Assembly: GCF_000263735.1 (NCBI RefSeq)
Contig: NC_017946.1
Location: 785,348-849,347, forward strand
Source of the DNA: Pyrococcus sp. ST04
GTDB lineage: Archaea > Methanobacteriota_B > Thermococci > Thermococcales > Thermococcaceae
Reading direction: 5' to 3'
Length of the DNA: 64,000 nt
Shown here: in pieces, positions 15,009 through 33,199 of the stretch
Layout of the letters: every line of letters starts with the position of its first letter
Numbering within the stretch: the first letter of the stretch is position 1
Notes under the pieces: model-generated
Seen by the model: the letters and a program-made list of their open reading frames with translations, nothing else
Database searches by the model: none
Told to the model about the DNA's origin: nothing
Made by a program: the position numbers and the translations under genes

Positions 15009-15985
15009 CTTTCAATTCTCCTATAGTCTTATTTGGAACATGAGGGCCGTCGAGAAGGCCGAGAGGGCCCTGAGCGCTTTCAATTCTTTTTTAGTCTTAT
15101 TGGAACAAAAACTCGGAGTGGACATAAACACGGACAAGCTCGCCTTTCAATTCTTTTTTTAGTCTTATTGGAACTTTACGTCTCGGACATTGACTCAGTT
15201 ATGATGCAGTATTCTTTCAATTCTTTTTTAGTCTTATTGGAACTAGCCGCTGAGGAGAAGTGGGCAAAGAGGATCATGCCTTTCAATTCTTTTTAGTCTT
15301 ATTGGAACTACAAGCCGATAGAAGGAGACAGAACCCCAGCAACCCTCTTTCAATTCTTTTTTAGTCTTATTGGAACTAAGCTTAAATCCCTCTGGAGTTA
15401 TGTCGTAAATGTACTTTCAATTCTTTTTTAGTCTTATTGGAACGTTGGTGCGTTGGGCTTGGTTGTTCTCGATTAGTGTGCTTTCAATTCTCTTATAGTC
15501 TTATTGGAACTTGATGCTCCTTCTAAGCCTGTTGAGATACATAAGAACTTTCAATTCTCTTATAGTCTTATTGGAACTCGAATGGGTCTCTAAAAATCAG
15601 GGGGATGTTGAAATAACTTTCAATTCTCTTATAGTCTTATTGGAACGCCGAGGCCCCACCCGGGGGCCGGGGGAACCCCCAAGCTTTCAATTCTCTTATA
15701 GTCTTATTGGAACAAGATCTACCTCCACAATGTCCCCATCCTTAATTCCCATTTCAATTCTCTTATAGTCTTATTGGAACCAAAAACATCCTTATACGGG
15801 TCGAACACTCCACCGACATTTCAATTCTCTTATAGTCTTATTGGAACGCGAGATCCTAAGGGACAAGTACGGCTTTGACTTTTCGGATTTCAATTCTCTT
15901 ATAGTCTTATTGGAACCTTATGTCAGGTACTATTCTCCTGATTATCATACTGAATATTTCAATTCTCTTATAGTCTTATTGGAAC
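15009..15985 (-). CRISPR. CRISPR array, 15 repeats and 14 spacers, transcribed leftward
   Basis: Fifteen 29-31 base repeats start at 15009, 15077, 15144, 15214, 15280, 15347, 15414, 15481, 15548, 15617, 15684, 15751, 15818, 15887 and 15956; spacers are 36-39 bases. Read on the minus strand each repeat begins GTTCCAATAAGACTA and ends AGAATTGAAA plus G or T, matching the P. furiosus type whose 8-base crRNA tag is AUUGAAAG. Three repeat classes lie in blocks: A-rich middle (15077-15443), ACTATAAGAGAATTG middle ending in G (15481-15713), and the same middle ending in T (15751-15985, nearest the leader). Cas6 at 19411 is the expected processing enzyme. Spacer origins are unknown. Confidence 0.98.
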
Positions 15986-16477
15986 AGGAGGCTTTTTTGG
16001 TGTTTTTTGTTTTCATACTGTTCTTCTGCCTTAATTTTTATAAGATTTTTGGTGGAGGGATTATTTCCGAGGGATTTGGAGTCTTCGATAAGCGATAATA
16101 AAAAAGCTGTGGGAGGAGAATGAGCCCCTAAAGATGCTTAAAAACTGTTGAAATTGAGTTCATGTGATTTGGTTCCAATGCTCTCAGAAGCCTGTATTCT
16201 AATGGAAAAACTCGAAAACTATTAAACCAGGAAAAAGGACAAGTTTACTCTTCAACACACGATATTTCAGTCATGTATTCATTCTTTCTCAGATTTCGAA
16301 AAAATTTCGTAACAATAAAATGACTTAAAAGCCACATAAAGTTATATAATAACAACCAATTACTAAAAGCCTCCAAAATGTTGATTTAGGAGTATGCATC
16401 TGAATAGCATCGTTGGAGGGTTTGTTTCCGAAAATTAGGAATATTATCCTGTTTCGAATATTTTTTGGTGTTTGTAT
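15986..16477 (-). promoter_or_regulatory. CRISPR leader
   Basis: 492 bases without a gene between the last repeat and cas2. Position next to the most uniform repeats and the P. furiosus-like repeat orientation make this the leader, read on the minus strand. A TATA element (CTTATAAAAAT read on minus, plus-strand 16034-16044) lies about 50 bp from the first repeat and would start transcription near 16010. The remainder is A/T-rich and is the expected docking region for adaptation proteins. The outer part must also carry the cas2 promoter in the other direction. Confidence 0.8.
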
Positions 16478-16735
16478 ATGTACATAGTCGTTGTTTATGA
16501 TGTTGGTGTTGAGAGGGTTAACAAAGTTAAGAAATTCCTGAGGCAACATCTTAACTGGGTTCAGAACAGCGTTTTTGAGGGGGAGGTAACTTTGGCAGAA
16601 TATGAAAGGATAAAGGCTGGGCTAAGAAAGCTGATAGACGAGAATTATGATGCCGTTGTCATATACAAATTAAGATCCATGCCTCCCAGGGAAACTCTCG
16701 GGATAGAAAAGAATCCTATAGAAGATATAATTTAG
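16478..16735 (+). CDS. cas2: CRISPR-associated Cas2
   Basis: 85-residue ferredoxin-fold protein that forms the structural core of the Cas1-Cas2 spacer integration complex. It starts MYIVVVYDVGVERVNKV, with the conserved Asp8, and has the FEGEVTLAEYERI and YDAVVIYKLR segments. ATG 16478, 7 bases after GGTG, is preferred to the in-frame TTG 16472. It is transcribed away from the leader and convergent with cas1-cas4, an arrangement different from a single adaptation operon. The frame is intact. Confidence 0.95.
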   Translation: MYIVVVYDVGVERVNKVKKFLRQHLNWVQNSVFEGEVTLAEYERIKAGLRKLIDENYDAVVIYKLRSMPPRETLGIEKNPIEDII

Positions 16736-16964: not shown

Positions 16965-18967
<2,003 letters not shown>

Positions 18968-19410: not shown

Positions 19411-20440
<1,030 letters not shown>

Positions 20441-23809: not shown

Positions 23810-24475
23810 TTAATCTTCAAGACAGATGCCTCCATGGAGTTTTAGGTAAAGAACTCCTGCCCTTGTAAGTGTGTAGCCTAGTGGTCTATTCTTACCAGAG
23901 ATTTCCTCTACAAGCGAGTATCTTTGGATATCCTTTAGCTCCCTGCTTATTGTGGCAGGTGAGACTCCCAGGTCCTCTGCTATTTTTCTTACGCTCTTCC
24001 CTGTTTTTAGTCCACACAGGATATTGATCCATCTAATATTTCTTGGAGCAAGAAATGGACCAAGTTCGAGAGAGATGAAACCAGAGAGGTTTTCGAAATC
24101 ACTCTCTACTTTTACCCTTGTGTTGTCCACAGTTATAGTTGCAAGGAGAATCACGACGTTTAATGGTCTCATGCCGCCAGAAAGGATTGCAATTATTCTC
24201 TTATCCTCGGTAAGGTTATCTTCAATTGCATTTTTTATTTCAAGAACCATGTTTTCTCCATTTGTTGTTAGAAGTTCAATTACCTTAAAGTTTTCTTCAC
24301 CAACAATGGGGACTGTTATGTCTCTAATCGCACGAAGTGCGTTTACCGCCTTTTCTTCTTTCTCATAACCTTTTGGAACAACAGCAAGTAACTTATCTCC
24401 TTTTTTTGTTTGATTTCTCATAAGAGCACGGATTATGAATTTCTCATCAAATCCTACTGGGAATATCGCAAGCAA
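23810..24475 (-). CDS. csa3: Csa3-like CRISPR regulator, CARF plus winged helix
   Basis: 221 residues. The N-terminal 130 residues form a CARF (Rossmann-like) ligand-sensing domain with the SGGMRPLNVVI loop at about 114-124. The C-terminal part is a winged helix-turn-helix (KIAEDLGVSPATISRELKDI, about 164-183) that binds DNA. Csa3 proteins sense cyclic oligoadenylate or similar ligands and control cas or array transcription. The start is TTG 24475, 4 bases after GGAGGTGA; the first 22 bases overlap cas3''. It is the last gene of the type I-A operon, so it may regulate its own operon. Confidence 0.9.
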   Translation of the reverse strand: MLAIFPVGFDEKFIIRALMRNQTKKGDKLLAVVPKGYEKEEKAVNALRAIRDITVPIVGEENFKVIELLTTNGENMVLEIKNAIEDNLTEDKRIIAILSGGMRPLNVVILLATITVDNTRVKVESDFENLSGFISLELGPFLAPRNIRWINILCGLKTGKSVRKIAEDLGVSPATISRELKDIQRYSLVEEISGKNRPLGYTLTRAGVLYLKLHGGICLED

Positions 24476-25113
24476 GCTTTCACCTCCTCATGGGTAGAAA
24501 TTACTTCCATAATCTCTCTTCCTAACATAGTTGGTTCTCCTTCTCTGTTCCTTATTGCTGAGTAGTTATCGGCAAGTGAGATTGGGAGTAGAAGGGCATA
24601 AACTGCGCGGATATTCGAGGCAAAAATGTCTGCCATCCAGTCTTTAAACTCGTTGGGGGCAATCCAAGGTACGTTCATTGGCACTTGTATCTCGGCAAGT
24701 TCTTTAATTATTTCTGCGCAGTCTGGATGTATTTTTAAGTTTTCAGGCTTTCTTGGGGGCTTTTCCCTAATCCAATCATGATGGTGAAGGAAGATGGCAA
24801 CTGTAGCTATACTTCCAGCTTTTCCAAATTGCCTTAGTACTTCCTTTGCAATAAGTGCTGAATAAAATTCGTGGAACTGAAAGCCCTTTTTTGTTTTCTG
24901 AAATTCTTCAAGACACTTTCCAACATCATGAATTGCATAAGCCTTGCGAAGAAGGTCTTCTGCATTCTCCTTTTTCAATCCGAGAACTTGTGAAAGGAAC
25001 TTTCCATAATTCCTTTTGATATATATTTTTTCTATAAATTTGAGCCCTTCTTTTATATGCGCTTCCATGCTTTCAATGCATCTCCCATTTTTAAAATATG
25101 CGCAACATATCAT
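24454..25113 (-). CDS. cas3'': Cas3'' HD nuclease (type I-A)
   Basis: 219-residue stand-alone HD-domain nuclease that cuts target DNA after Cascade recruitment. HD motif: AIHDVGK with His62-Asp63; second metal motif LHHHD at 110-113; further conserved SLADNYSA near 178-185. Split Cas3 (separate HD and helicase genes) is the hallmark of type I-A. Start ATG 25113 overlaps the cas3' stop by 4 bases (ATGA), and its end overlaps csa3, so translation is coupled in both directions. Confidence 0.93.
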   Translation of the reverse strand: MICCAYFKNGRCIESMEAHIKEGLKFIEKIYIKRNYGKFLSQVLGLKKENAEDLLRKAYAIHDVGKCLEEFQKTKKGFQFHEFYSALIAKEVLRQFGKAGSIATVAIFLHHHDWIREKPPRKPENLKIHPDCAEIIKELAEIQVPMNVPWIAPNEFKDWMADIFASNIRAVYALLLPISLADNYSAIRNREGEPTMLGREIMEVISTHEEVKACLRYSQ

Positions 25114-26684
25114 ACTATTCCACGCTCCTTATCGTACTCTCCTGTAAACTTAATTGTTATAGGGTTTCCAAGAGCTATCATCTTAGCAACGTCATATGCA
25201 TCTTTAAAGGAGCATAGAGAGACTTCTCTTTCCCTTGCAACGACTTTGACAAGTCCTTTCTTGGATAGTTCTAACAGCTTTTTCGGTGAAATCAATACAA
25301 TCTCCCCTTCGACTTCAAGAGGAATCAAAAAGCCCCTAAGTAAAGGACCCTCATCTTTTGTTATAAGCTTTATTTCGTTGAGAACATCTTTTGAGCGTTT
25401 TGTTGGATTTTTGAGAAGGGTATGGAGTTTTCTCATTAGACTCCTATTCACACCTCGCATAACTTCAGGCTTTCTTTCTCCATGTACCTCATTTACGATC
25501 TTTTGATATGTCCACGGAACTCGGGGATTGAATCCGGGGGCTTCTTTTATAAGGGTGACTGTCTTTTCAATTTTCTCTTTGCTATAAGGACCGGTGGGAG
25601 CATCTTCCAAGATTATTATCTCGCCTTTTCTCTCCCTGTACCGAGCTACCCTGCCGAAGCGTTGGAGCAGGGAGTTTATTGGGGCCGCATCAGTAATCAT
25701 GATATCAACTGAGAAATCAACGCCGGCTTCTATGGCCTGTGTGCCGATTAATAAAAAGCTCTTTTCATTATTTAATTTTCTCAGCCTTTCTATTAGCTCT
25801 GCCTTGTGGCTTGGCTTCATTCTTCCATGAATCAGGATTATTTTGTCTTCCTCGAAGCCAAGTTCTGGAGCATTTTCTTTTGCTTGGTCAAAAATCTCTA
25901 CAGCTCTCGATACGGAGTTAGCTACTATTGCGACCCTCTTAGTATTATCAACGAAATCTAACGGATTCCCAGTTTGGAATTTTATTTCAAATTCCTTCCT
26001 TAACTCACGTCGGATAAAGGGATCCTCTTCATTAGGGGACAAAATTTCAAGGTTGTTTTTCTTTGTGCACTCTTCAAAAAGTTTTATATAACCTCTCGAT
26101 AGTGTTGCTGTCATGATTACTATCGGCACATTATTCTCAGCTAGGAACTTAAGAACCGAGAAGAAGACAGTTTTCATTCTCGGATCCTCAAGTATGAAGT
26201 GGGCTTCATCAAAGATTATGAGTGATGTGAGAATTGATGCCTGTGTGAGGTAGTCATAGCCAAATTCTCGTCCCCTGTCTATCTGAGGTATTTTCTTTGT
26301 ATTGAGCTTGAGCACATCCCACGTGAACGTATCCACGGTGGTAATGTTAAGGGGAAAAAGGTGTAGAAATTCCTCATTTGAGCTCATCATCTTTGTCCTT
26401 GAAAAACCAAACGCTTCCTTGGCAGTTCGGTCTATGTCCTCTATAATTGACCGCATTGGAAGAACGTGAATGACTCTGTCAAAGAGTGAAGCATCTTGTA
26501 GTGAGTAAAGAGCAAGGGAAAAACTTATGGAAGTCTTGCCATAGCCTGTTGGCGCTTGAACAACCAAAAAGGGAGTATCCGAGGAGAGTATTCTATCTAG
26601 TGCTTCCTCTATTAGAGGTCGTTTTTCTGGCTTAAATCCTTTAATTTGTGAAAGTCTTTGTGCAACCTGCTCGTAGGGATTCAC
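25110..26684 (-). CDS. cas3': Cas3' helicase (type I-A)
   Basis: 524-residue SF2 helicase that unwinds and translocates target DNA with Cas3''. Walker A APTGYGKT at 44-51, DEAH at 159-162, MTATLSRGY for motif III, GTQAIEAGVDFSVDIMITD for motif V and LLQRFGRVARYRERKG for motif VI, so all helicase motifs are intact. No HD domain, consistent with the separate cas3''. ATG 26684 overlaps the end of cas8a by 4 bases. Confidence 0.94.
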   Translation of the reverse strand: MNPYEQVAQRLSQIKGFKPEKRPLIEEALDRILSSDTPFLVVQAPTGYGKTSISFSLALYSLQDASLFDRVIHVLPMRSIIEDIDRTAKEAFGFSRTKMMSSNEEFLHLFPLNITTVDTFTWDVLKLNTKKIPQIDRGREFGYDYLTQASILTSLIIFDEAHFILEDPRMKTVFFSVLKFLAENNVPIVIMTATLSRGYIKLFEECTKKNNLEILSPNEEDPFIRRELRKEFEIKFQTGNPLDFVDNTKRVAIVANSVSRAVEIFDQAKENAPELGFEEDKIILIHGRMKPSHKAELIERLRKLNNEKSFLLIGTQAIEAGVDFSVDIMITDAAPINSLLQRFGRVARYRERKGEIIILEDAPTGPYSKEKIEKTVTLIKEAPGFNPRVPWTYQKIVNEVHGERKPEVMRGVNRSLMRKLHTLLKNPTKRSKDVLNEIKLITKDEGPLLRGFLIPLEVEGEIVLISPKKLLELSKKGLVKVVAREREVSLCSFKDAYDVAKMIALGNPITIKFTGEYDKERGIV

Positions 26685-27877
26685 ATAAGCACCTCCAGAT
26701 GTCCTTCCTGCATAAAAGCTCTGAGTACTTTTCTCAGCTCTCCACTAGCTTTTCCTGTCCCTTCAAGTAACCCTCTACCTTGTCTAAACAGTCTGAATAT
26801 AGAGTCTTCTATTAATTCCCTCCGTCCAGTATTCACAGCTCGGTAAATGTCCTTAACGAGGATGTAGGCTAGCATCTCTCCATCCCCATTTACACCACTT
26901 CTCAGCTCTTTTTCAGCTATATCTACAAGGGCCCAAAGAGGGTACTTTTCTACCTCGATATTATCCTCTTTGAGCTTGACCTTTAGGTCTACTCCCATTG
27001 TCATATAGTTCTCAATTTTTTTGATGTATGTAGCGAGATAGTTTGATAATTCCCCAATGTCAAGTTGAAGAGTCTTCAACTCCGTATAGACTTGGCCCTC
27101 AAGGCTAATTAGATGTAGTGTTACTGGATAAGTTTTTTCTGGCACGTTTCTTCCTTCTTCAGCAAGTTTCATGGCTATTTTAAGCTCATACAACTCTTCT
27201 GCATCAAGTCTGGCTTTACTCTCAATCCCTGCATCCGTTAGGGCAAGTATGCCATCTAGAATTTCTTCAACATCTGGAAAGTAGACTTCAATGCTAGGCT
27301 TCGTCATTAAATAGTACTTTCCGCCAATAAATCCTGCAAATGCTGTAAGGAAACCTAGAGAGAGCAGAGAAAGCCAAAGAGGGTCGAGGTATATTTGAGC
27401 CTTTTGTCCAGCCGTTGGTTTTAGAAAGTCGCTTTGAAACTCGTAGTACTCTGGTTGCTTTACAACCGCTGGACTTATAGCATAATGGCCATTATAGGGC
27501 TGACCAAGGTATGTGCCCTTGTTATCCCACTTAATAGTTCCTAAAGATTTGGTCGGATCAATCTTTTTGGAGCGCAGAAGCTTGACAGCTTCTTTTATCG
27601 CAAGCTCAAAAAGTTCTATGTATGTGTCTGGAGCCTTGACGCCATACCATGCCGAAAGGACTTTATCATATGAGTTTTTGTCGTTTCTACCCATGCGTGA
27701 TGAGTTCATCTTTGCTCGCTTTTTTAGCGTGTTTTCTATGGAGTTTTCAAAGATATCCGCAAAATCTTCAGCACTTGGTGAAAGTCCTGCCTCCATAACA
27801 ATCCACGAAAATCCCAATGTTATTAGTTCTTTTGAGAGACCTTCAAAGGGTAACTTGGCAATAGCCTCAAGTATCAT
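26681..27877 (-). CDS. cas8a2: Cas8a2/Csa4, large subunit of type I-A Cascade
   Basis: 398 residues. Position between cas5 and cas3' and length fit the Cas8a2 (Csa4) large subunit, which reads the PAM and contacts Cas3. The sequence itself is poorly conserved in this family; visible are a mid-protein hydrophobic stretch (LSLLSLGFLTAFAGFIGGKYYL, with the first 18 residues around 167-184) and a helical C-terminus. ATG 27877 overlaps the cas5 stop by 4 bases. The family call is mainly from gene order. Confidence 0.82.
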   Translation of the reverse strand: MILEAIAKLPFEGLSKELITLGFSWIVMEAGLSPSAEDFADIFENSIENTLKKRAKMNSSRMGRNDKNSYDKVLSAWYGVKAPDTYIELFELAIKEAVKLLRSKKIDPTKSLGTIKWDNKGTYLGQPYNGHYAISPAVVKQPEYYEFQSDFLKPTAGQKAQIYLDPLWLSLLSLGFLTAFAGFIGGKYYLMTKPSIEVYFPDVEEILDGILALTDAGIESKARLDAEELYELKIAMKLAEEGRNVPEKTYPVTLHLISLEGQVYTELKTLQLDIGELSNYLATYIKKIENYMTMGVDLKVKLKEDNIEVEKYPLWALVDIAEKELRSGVNGDGEMLAYILVKDIYRAVNTGRRELIEDSIFRLFRQGRGLLEGTGKASGELRKVLRAFMQEGHLEVLM

Positions 27878-28611
27878 AGTACCACCTCCTCGCCGTCTAA
27901 GGTAACGACTTTGAGCTTTCCCCTGACAATAACTTCCTCCTCCGGGTAAAACATAACAATAAGTGGTACATCTGAATAGCTTCCAATTCCTTTTCTCCAG
28001 TCAAAAACGGCCCGAAGTGCTCCCTTACCTTCGACTTCCTTACCGCTAAAGGGGAATGCATAGGATGTTTTTGCTTCTTCCATTTCGTGAACCTCCGCCC
28101 TTCCACTTTCAACGTTTTCAACACTAACCACGGACTCTCGCGAGCCAAGTCTACTTATTCCCCAAGCAGCTCTTTTAAAGTCCTTGAGAGTGTAGGGACT
28201 GTTTGAGATTGCCTCTTCTTTGAGTAGATAAACAATTGATAGTGAATAGTTTATGTTCCCGTACATTACTGCAAAGGGAAATGATGTTACTGCACTCTCA
28301 ACGTTACCTCTGTGAAGCCGGTTTATCTTTAATATTGAACCATATATTTTTGGTTTCCCAGTCATTTTCGTTGTGACCCAAAGAAATAAGTTTCTCAGCT
28401 TATCAGCAGCACTTTTTTGATTCTTTCCTTCTATTAGGGTCTCTCTACGCTCACCCATTAGGTGGAAAAGGGGGTATGCAATGGCCCCTATTAAGGTGCT
28501 TGGTGGAATATAATCAAGGGCATTGCGCATTTTGCTCTGAGGAAGAGCTCTGAGGGCGATGACTCCTGCAGGTTTTACTTCAACTTTTAAAAAGAAAATC
28601 AAGAGAATCAC
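27874..28611 (-). CDS. cas5a: Cas5a, type I-A Cascade subunit
   Basis: 245-residue RAMP protein that holds the 5' tag of the crRNA in Cascade. The N-terminal strand ILLIFFLKVEVKPAGV and the region PPSTLIGAIAYPLF (35-49) are the usual Cas5 signatures. The frame is intact and lies 1 base after the cas7 stop. Overlap of its stop with the cas8a start suggests coupled translation and fixed subunit ratios. Confidence 0.88.
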   Translation of the reverse strand: MILLIFFLKVEVKPAGVIALRALPQSKMRNALDYIPPSTLIGAIAYPLFHLMGERRETLIEGKNQKSAADKLRNLFLWVTTKMTGKPKIYGSILKINRLHRGNVESAVTSFPFAVMYGNINYSLSIVYLLKEEAISNSPYTLKDFKRAAWGISRLGSRESVVSVENVESGRAEVHEMEEAKTSYAFPFSGKEVEGKGALRAVFDWRKGIGSYSDVPLIVMFYPEEEVIVRGKLKVVTLDGEEVVL

Positions 28612-28612
28612 C

Positions 28613-29559
28613 TCAGATATAGCCCTTCTCGCGGATGTAATCGATGGCCTCCTTTAGCACCTCCTCAGGGAGCTTCTCTTCATCACTCTTCGCGTAGAAA
28701 TAACTCTCGCCAAAGGATTCAAGAACTTTTAACCTGTTCTCGGTTTTTTCTGCATATCCTTCATATATTGGTGACGTAACTACGAAGGGATGGTCAGTAA
28801 TTGAGATAATGAGTTCCGTGATTCCCCCAACAGGGAAGAACCTTGAGAGCTTTGCGCCGAACTGAGCCGATGAAAGCATTCTGAAAAGGGCTTTGAGTGC
28901 AACTTCGCGTCTCTCCTTTATCTCGTTCTCATCAAGTACTGGCTTTGATGTTATTGCACTTACTCCTATTGCATCGAGGTCGAGGTTAAATGTGAAACCA
29001 TAGATGGCAGTACCAGTTTCTACGTAATATATCATCTGCTCAGGGGCATTGCCTTTCTTGCTTGATAAGTCAATCTGAGCATGTCTGGCATGGAGTTGGG
29101 GTTCAGAAGTCGCAAAGAGAGCTACTGACTTTATAGGAAGCGCATAGCTAACTTGGAAGACGGAACTTCTTCTAACGGGTGGTTTTTCTGCATAGAGAAA
29201 GCCACCAATGTCTTCAACAATGCATGACTTTAAGATTCCTTCCTCAATTTTTTTAGGGTCGTTTGGAATCGGGTCAATTTTCTTCTTAAGATGTACTTTG
29301 TTCATCGATTTATAGAACTCACCGCGCTGACAATCGTCACAAACTGGAAGTCCCATACCAAGGGCCTCTCTGACGAGATGCTCTTGGTATGCATGGGCAA
29401 GACTTTCTCCGCTAATCGCTGGGACATAAACCGTCTTTAGCTTTCCATTTTCTTCGACAAGATATGGAACGCGTCTGTGTTTGCTATAGTTTCCGGCAGT
29501 TTCCACCATGTTCAGAGCCTCAACGTTGGCTTCAAACCTTACGCCAACACTCAGAAACA

Positions 29560-29560
<1 letters not shown>
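28613..29560 (-). CDS. cas7: Cas7 (Csa2), backbone subunit of type I-A Cascade
   Basis: 315-residue RAMP protein that polymerises along the crRNA. The N-terminus MFLSVGVRFEANVEALNMVE and the following GNYSKHRRVPYLV are characteristic of the Csa2/DevR family. An internal CDDC pair (VCDDCQRG, about 77-84) may bind metal or lie in the thumb insert. The stop of csa5 and its ATG share one base (29560). Confidence 0.93.
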
Positions 29561-29940
<380 letters not shown>

Positions 29941-30502: not shown

Positions 30503-31273
30503 GGTCACCCTCCTTATCCACGGCTCAAAGAGTGGATTCTCGATTATATAACGCCCGTTTTCGCGGATAAGCAACTCCTTCTCCAGTAGCGCCTTCAGTG
30601 CAGCCTGAACTGTTGATGGCTTTTCAAAGCCATATCTCATGAGAAAGTCCCTTGAGTAGAATTCAGACTTCCCCTCAGCCACCGCCTTGATAAAACGTCT
30701 CTGATTCACTGTTAGCGACCCCTATATCTCCTCAAAGAACTCTGAGGTTTCCGAGAGCACTTCCTCAACGGCCATTTTTAGGTCATCGCTATCGAGTTCT
30801 ACTTTTCCTGCAAGTTTTGCGTTCAGCCAGAGGCGATAGCATAGCATTTGGGTGTAGTGAGGATGCCCCTTGGTTATTCCGAGTATCTCATCGACTAAAT
30901 CTTCGGGCACTTTAATTCCACTTTCCTCGAACTTTCTGAGAATAAAGGGCTTGAACTTCTCGGGAGGGATCCTTTTGAGAACCATGTGCATGCCGAAGTT
31001 GTAAAACGGACTCTCAATGGACTGAAAAATATCCCTCATCATGCCGGTCTTGCTCCCTATAAAAACATAAATTGCGTTTCTGTGGTTTTGAAATTCTGAG
31101 CGCATCTTCGCCAGAACTGCCTGTCCAAGATTTGCAACCTCTTGAAACTCGTCGAATACGACAACAACCCTTTTATTTCTTTCACCTCCGATTCTTTCTG
31201 GCAACTTGAGGGACTCCTCTTTTTGTAAGTTAGCTCTAACTGTAATTTTTGTTATATCAACAAGTATAATCAC
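30491..31273 (-). pseudogene. Archaeal AAA ATPase, 5'-truncated and with an in-frame stop
   Basis: Two frames in the same phase separated by one TAG at 30722-30724. The first (31273-30725) has the Walker B VVVVFDEFQEV, sensor VFIGSKTGMMRDIF and the RxPxxxxxPF helix of archaeal STAND-type ATPases, but lacks the N-terminal Walker A. The second (to 30491) is the winged-helix end, FIKAVAEGKSEFYSRDFLMR and so on. The missing Walker A and the amber codon make an active protein unlikely. Its first codons overlap the end of the cas3 remnant by 4 bases. Related ATPases are frequent in Thermococcales islands. Confidence 0.75.
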
Positions 31274-33199
31274 AGCACCTCTCCTTCGTTTAGTGGCTCC
31301 CTTAATAGGCCGAATTCCTCGCTGTATTTAAGTTCGGCAACTAGCAGTCGCCTGCCTAATCCCTTGTCAGAGAGCCTGTGAAAGGAATCCTGCTCGGCGA
31401 AGAAGAGCCAGTAAGGTACCGGTACGAGGTAGCGGTAGACTTCAATCGATTTACCGGCATCGAGTAGCTTGCTGACCTTTCCAGCATACTTTGCCGGAAC
31501 GGCTTCAAGTCCCTGAAACATTTCGTAGAACTTTCTTTCATCCTCTCCCTTTTTCAGAGGCTTGAGATTGTTGAAGATTTTGAGGGCTGTTTCCATGTAC
31601 TCAATAGCTTTCTCTCTTAGCTCGTTGGCAACTGGCTCATAGGCCTCGTTCACGAGATCTGGGACTATGGACTCTCTTAGGGGTTTTCCATCAAGTTCCT
31701 TTAGGATTCTCAAGCTCTTCTTAACAATTTTCGGGGGGGTATACCCTCTCATCGCCCTTGGAGCCTTCTGTAAGTACGTAGACATCCTTCAGCCTTCCAA
31801 AGCCCCGCCTGTTAACTCTGCCAAATCTCTGAATTAATGCGTCAAGAGGAGCTGGCTCCGTTAATATTGACTCGAAATTCAAATCAAGCGAAACCTCAAC
31901 AACCTGAGTTGCAACCACGAAGTCATATTTCCTAAGGTTTTGGAGGAGTTTCCTTTCCTTTTCTTCCCTGTCCCCGTATGGGAAGCGGCTGTGAAGAAGC
32001 ACGACCTTATAGCCCATGTCTTTAAGCTTGGAATAAACCTCGATGGCTCTGTCTACAGTATTGCAGGCCACGAGAGATGGTTTAGGAAGTTCTCCTACCA
32101 GACCCTCAATGTTGTCCATACTACCGTTTATGAGGTTCACCCTATGCCTAGTGAATTTGTCCGCTTCATCTGCGGACACTTTAAGCTCTCTTGGGTTGAT
32201 AATCTTCTTTATTAGCTCCTCCATAAAGGTTGGAAGTGTCGCCGTCATGATTAGCGTCTTTGCCATATAGTCCTTTAGGAGCTTTAGTATGGCAAGGATG
32301 ATTCCCAAGATATTGGGCTCGTAGGCATGTATCTCATCAAATATCAGAAGGGAGTTTGTTAGCTCACTTAGGCTCATCTCGAAGAATCCTACCCCAAAAA
32401 AGGCTTTCATTATTTGGAATAGAGTTGTGACTTTGAGGGGTGTGTATATCTTGCGATAGAGTGACGACAGGCGCTGGTATTCAAGATGAGATGAGTAAAG
32501 ATAAAATGTTGAAGAGCTGTGAAGGACGCCAACAAGGGCGGGATCACCGAAAACATCGAGTAATCGCTGGTGCATCGCGTTTATGCTGACCTTGTATGGA
32601 AGAATGTAGAATATCCTACTCGTTATTCCCTTCTTTGTCCGTTGTGCGTTTCTATCTGCCCACAGAAGGGCTGCCTCTGTCTTTCCGTAGCCCGTGGGAG
32701 CTCTCAAAAGAAGGTTGCCATAAGTTTCGTAGGCCTGCCTTTGGAGAGGTCTCCACTTCTCTCTTGGAATTTTCTCATCTATGCTATCTGCTATGCTGGG
32801 AAGTAGCCTTATCTTTACTTCTCCAGCTGATGCTAGATGATCAGTAGCGTTTAGAAGACCCTTCAAGAATGTAAGCTCTTTCCAGTTGTCCTTAAAGTTA
32901 GTCTCATACCATTTTAGCAGGGCTTCAAAGTCGAAAGACGGAATTTGTTTAGTCCAATCTGCTGGTAATTTGAACCTGTTCAGGGGTTCTCCAAATACGT
33001 ACTTTTCCCATAGGAGAACCTTGGGCATAAAGAACTTCTCTATGTACTCAGCGTTTTCCAGAAGCTCTTTGATTCTATCTTCGAACTCAAGTGGTATTCC
33101 ACGAATCCTTCTCGGAATCATTTGATCAAGCTCATCAAGGGTTTTGTGATGGGTGAGGACGGCAGCAATGATGTTCCGGGCGTCCTCGAGGGAATCACT
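31270..33199 (-). pseudogene. cas3: Second cas3 gene, HD domain lost and frameshifted at C7
   Basis: Helicase part of a Cas3 unlike the type I-A pair. The frame opens at a stop near 33199 and reads SLEDARNIIAAVLTHHKTLDELDQ, the last helices of an HD domain, then Walker A APTGYGKT, FDEIHAYEP for motif II, MTATLP and QRFGRVNRRG. The HD motif half is absent. At plus-strand G7 (31733-31739) the frame is lost; with six bases it would read VYPPKIVKKSL and continue to 31270. DEIH is typical of Cas3 outside type I-A (I-B-like). Remnant of a second effector system. Confidence 0.85.

Follow-up and report, generated by a model that had tools for sequence, protein, structure and literature searches.

Blocks of variant repeats in a Pyrococcus sp. 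ST04 CRISPR array probably record successive changes of its leader-proximal repeat

How do repeats of differing sequence come to lie side by side in tidy blocks within a single CRISPR array, and what does a change in the last repeat base, which is also the last base of the crRNA tag, mean for function? We addressed both questions at a CRISPR array of Pyrococcus sp. ST04 that lies in a window of 64,000 nucleotides (the whole stretch of DNA analysed, positions 785348-849347 of the 1,736,885-base, one-contig genome). The array, here called array B, spans 15009-15985, exactly the bounds proposed by an earlier sequence-only reading of this DNA, and holds 15 repeats and 14 spacers on the minus strand with its leader at higher coordinates; repeats are numbered R1 to R15 starting at the leader (Table 1). 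We found it to be of the Thermococcales kind: every repeat but R15 matches the Rfam model CRISPR-DR6 above gathering score on the minus strand (14 of 15), the 14 spacers are unique and measure about 37 nt (36-39 nt), and a leader and cas genes lie nearby. The last 30 nt of the leader are common to three other arrays of the genome with 1-3 differences per pair, and for the candidate promoter listed in Table 1 there is a precedent in the promoters mapped in P. abyssi CRISPR leaders (PMC3124441).

Table 1. Positions in the window of the parts of array B and of the cas genes beside it.
Feature	Position	Strand	Basis
Leader, like that of array D; distal edge approximate	15986-16380	-	
Candidate promoter: TATA-like element in leader, about 50 nt upstream of R1	16037-16044	-	sequence match only
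R1-R4, newest block, T-ended; crRNAs of spacers 1-4 predicted to carry AUUGAAAU tags	15751-15985	-	
R1 (leader-proximal; middle ATAAGAG, T-ended)	15956-15985	-	repeat parse and CRISPR-DR6
R2	15887-15916	-	
R3	15818-15847	-	
R4	15751-15780	-	
R5-R8, second block, ATAAGAG middle, last base G	15481-15713	-	
R9-R14, third block, A-run middle	15077-15443	-	
R15, degenerate terminal repeat, leader-distal end	15009-15039	-	missed by CRISPR-DR6
cas2	16472-16735	+	
cas1, split into two frames by a break in or close to the 7-base run at 17417	16965-17949	-	
cas4	17937-18449	-	
cas6	19411-20238	-	
Type I-A operon, complete: csa3-like regulator, cas3 HD, cas3 helicase, cas8a, cas5a, cas7a, cas11a (csa5)	23810-29916	-	

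The three side-by-side blocks with different repeat middles described by the sequence-only reading are present, and to them we add R15 as a single degenerate terminal repeat. The four leader-proximal repeats do end in T instead of G, with R1-R4 ending GAAAT and R5-R8, which share the ATAAGAG middle, ending GAAAG. The variation in A-run length reported for the older block, at 5, 6 or 7 (29, 30 or 31 nt), is found in R9-R14, whose runs of A6, A6, A5, A6, A7 and A6 give repeats of 30, 30, 29, 30, 31 and 30 nt. R15 reaches 31 nt through an extra A in its 5' half, has the middle ATAGGAG, and is closer to the newest repeat form than to the middle (A-run) one. This arrangement is non-random, the chance of the four T repeats landing exactly at the leader end of 15 being 1/1365 and that of 8 and 6 repeats falling as two clean blocks being 2/3003.

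Spacer acquisition duplicates the leader-proximal repeat, a mechanism established for CRISPR in general on which the age order of the blocks rests, and a change in that repeat would be inherited by every later repeat. The history that we propose for array B would begin with replacement of the A-run form by the ATAAGAG form, most likely through recombination (gene conversion) with an ATAAGAG repeat, whether within array B or in a different array, followed by at least 7 acquisitions; the last base of the leader-proximal repeat would next have mutated from G to T, with at least 3 acquisitions afterwards. The differences in A-run length would most likely stem from homopolymer slippage, with some perhaps owed to sequencing error. 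The sequence-only reading had proposed at least two replacements of the leader-proximal repeat, each subsequently copied, and the order of the blocks from the leader bears this out (A-run to ATAAGAG, then G to T); the events probably number three once R15 is counted. We put at roughly 85% the probability that this is an ordinary Pyrococcus-type array whose repeat blocks record the past of its leader-proximal repeat, on the basis of the blocks themselves, a second mosaic array in the genome, two repeat forms without intermediates, a chimeric leader, and blocks of last bases across the family. On that reading, array B provides a clear, ordered record of first-repeat turnover.

The pattern is real, tidy and of a known kind, namely repeat turnover at the leader end, and it indicates no new mechanism. 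In Pyrobaculum, repeat types are mixed in clusters within arrays, for which recombination or copying from another array has been proposed (PMC3396285). Array B is like the P. neutrophilum crispr5 and P. oguniense crispr1 arrays described in that work, in which clustered repeats with different cores occupy one array; the same source reports that each of the two P. neutrophilum cores heads unmixed arrays elsewhere in that genome. Two features set the present genome apart from the Pyrobaculum arrays as described there: in array B the handle too is altered, at its last base, and another array, array A, is composed of five alternating blocks. Array B also resembles P. abyssi CRISPR 1 and 4 (PMC3124441; CRISPR-DR6) in its 30-nt repeat, spacers of about 37 nt, degenerate leader-distal repeat and AT-rich leader with a TATA-like element, but differs from them in having two repeat forms and two last bases.

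Both repeat forms occur in the other arrays of the genome (A, C and D). The four arrays together contain 55 repeats, comprising 21 ATAAGAG repeats, 33 A-run repeats and one degenerate terminal repeat (R15 of array B), a count that leaves out two hits of a looser pattern, namely a degenerate 11th repeat in array C and a chance match at a distance from array A. The 21 repeats of array A run as 9 ATAAGAG, 6 A-run, 3 ATAAGAG, 2 A-run and 1 ATAAGAG, while arrays C (10 repeats) and D (9 repeats) consist of the A-run form only. The last base is T in 4 of the 55 repeats, all in array B, and G in 51. Two base differences separate the ATAAGAG and A-run forms, and a single-change intermediate is found in 0 of the 55 repeats except the degenerate R15. 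The five blocks of array A, the two-base difference and the lack of intermediates favour recombination between repeats over recurrent point mutation; repeated double point mutation without an intermediate is an unlikely origin for the five blocks, which exchange between repeats of the two forms explains more simply.

Leader likeness is 89% between arrays A and C and 77% between arrays B and D, whereas the newest repeat form is shared by A and B on one side and by C and D on the other. Leader kinship does not track repeat form, as expected if short stretches had been exchanged, and segments of leader and repeat appear to have moved within this genome. The array D leader (locus L034) looks chimeric, its far part resembling the leaders of A and C and its near part that of array B.

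Mis-assembly may also generate such blocks, an explanation against which array A speaks, since both repeat forms again lie in blocks there. Alternatively, recombination might have moved multi-unit segments between arrays and so built the blocks, rather than a change in the first repeat followed by copying. The five alternating blocks of array A and the chimeric leader of array D speak for such movement, but the arrays have no spacers in common (no 12-mer is shared by any two of the 51 spacers in the genome's arrays, and hence there is no trace of duplicated units), and the T variant is confined to array B within the genome, indicating that at least that step was probably a local mutation; we consider segment movement a rather unlikely origin of the blocks. 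Less probable again, and in our judgement distinctly doubtful, is a broader reading in which, throughout the family, one array regularly overwrites the leader-proximal repeat of another, with repeat forms exchanged and spacers kept separate. That low estimate covers jointly the two routes by which overwriting might proceed, leader-linked gene conversion and adaptation that copies a repeat in trans; were the reading true, it would have left its traces in the alternating blocks of array A and in the chimeric leader of array D.

We then considered the last repeat base across the family, where the T of array B proves to be one case of a common drift. A non-G last base is present in 60 of 94 family genomes, in many cases forming blocks on the leader side, and 41 of the 94 have at least 4 non-G repeats (counted from the survey table). 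Among the 94 genomes, 29 have a non-G repeat immediately on the leader (newer) side of a G repeat and 26 have the reverse order, many of these latter cases lying at the terminal repeat only. The survey patterns fix GAATTGAAA, so variation elsewhere in the handle lies outside these counts. Arrays within one genome differ in their last base, with T in 1 of 5 parsed arrays of one genome (G002) and C in 1 of 3 of another (G003), suggesting that the last base is copied per array. Blocks can be long, as in the 40 C followed by 7 G at locus L111 and the 23 T followed by 7 G at locus L147.

A tally of last bases in 65 parsed arrays, leaving out terminal repeats, gave 642 G, 272 C, 58 T and 19 A; this set is enriched for boundaries. 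The bias arises from loci L118-L177, which were taken by boundary patterns, and the unbiased figures are the 60, 29 and 26 of 94 genomes given above; the array parser used for this set also misses R15 of array B, so that R14 was dropped as its last repeat. The 30 mixed arrays of this boundary-enriched set contain 74 last-base runs, compared to a shuffled mean of 147.5 and a minimum of 130 in 2000 shuffles. A random order of last bases is rejected by this shuffle test together with the block probabilities. We likewise reject a last base supplied by the incoming spacer, in which the T block would reflect the PAM-derived base that was captured. Bases at -1 are PAM-derived in type I-E (the last G of the repeats) and this has been suggested for type I-C (PMC8482600), but the same work reports a match between PAM and repeat at -1 as frequent only in types I-C and I-E, and the uniform yet different last bases among arrays of one genome and the long blocks at L111 and L147 leave this origin extremely improbable.

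The effectors found in the genome are of types I-A and III-A (Csm). Besides the type I-A operon in the window, a second cas locus at about 97-110 kb of the genome contains an intact cas1 (genome 108993-109913), cas4, a cas3, cas6 and a III-A csm set; III-B was not found in the genome, where the sole match to the Cmr2 family scored below cut-off and lies inside the csm1/cas10 gene. A further, I-B-like cas3 at 31270-33121 of the window is in two frames, split at a 7-base G run (31733). The frame breaks in this gene and in the cas1 of Table 1 may reflect either true decay by slippage or sequencing error.

The sequence-only reading went on to claim that the changed tag base alters target discrimination, a claim for which we find no support: the rules published for P. 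furiosus set no requirement at this position, and every crRNA keeps a tag identical to the repeat flanking its spacer. We apply to array B, by analogy, the 8-nt crRNA tag length of Pyrobaculum (PMC3396285). The acquisition PAM of P. furiosus is NGG, and activation of its Cmr DNase requires NGN, NNG or NAA in the target flank with no demand on the first position (PMC7192623). A CUU flank, which faces a G-ended tag, is reported as inactive, and AUU, the flank opposite a U-ended tag, fits none of NGN, NNG and NAA and is absent from the table examined (PMC7192623). For type I systems, the -1 PAM base is described as not predictable from the repeat (PMC8482600). Self-pairing with antisense array RNA should be unchanged because each crRNA takes its tag from the repeat that adjoins its spacer in the array. 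Given the P. furiosus rules and the fact that A, C and T are common in the family, our best guess is that a T at the tag end is functionally neutral, a conclusion by analogy since the discrimination rules are those of P. furiosus III-B and the effectors here are of other types; the repeat changes as a whole probably have little effect on function.

An adaptive role for the T-ended tag would have AUUGAAAU in place of AUUGAAAG shift self/non-self discrimination or load the newest spacers onto a different effector. The confinement of T to the newest spacers and the peak of crRNA abundance near the leader in Pyrobaculum (PMC3396285) are consistent with such a role, which we nonetheless regard as very improbable, as each of the four possible last bases is common in the family and the published rules make no use of the last tag position (PMC7192623, PMC8482600). 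The drift of this base in many species puts to a natural test the rule under which local PAM and flank checks disregard the position.

The 33 A-run repeats of the genome comprise 26 with A6, 6 with A7 and 1 with A5. Sequencing or assembly errors at homopolymers offer a tentative explanation for the variants, one that we hold to be somewhat less probable than an even chance, and two cas genes of the window are indeed frame-broken at 7-base runs (17417 and 31733), of which the 53 long ORFs kept contain 11 distinct ones; if those breaks are sequencing error, some of the A-run variants may be error too. However, 7 of the 33 A-run repeats deviate from A6 versus 2 breaks at 56 runs of at least 6 bases in long ORFs (Fisher P 0.012), a comparison in which the 2 breaks are a minimum, being those noticed rather than the yield of a full check of genes. 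Repeat lengths of 29-31 nt are, moreover, described as general in Thermococcales (PMC12934983). The comparison of deviation rates thus favours real slippage.

Spacer matches of 20 nt among the fetched loci all fell inside the window's own genome, with none shared with other species. Phage searches with the array, in near mode with flanks and in distant mode, returned no protospacers, and IMG/VR gave 22-23-nt pieces of spacers 1-4 with no exact match. The plasmid search returned short pieces only, including a repeat-like match of 30 bases in Thermococcus nautili; this is a single 30-base CRISPR-repeat-like stretch of plasmid KF527230.1 (16359-16388) with no annotation beneath it. One spacer of array A (locus L031, about 2001-2049) is 49 nt long and starts with TTGGAAC, the reverse complement of the repeat start, and is possibly the remnant of an aberrant integration.
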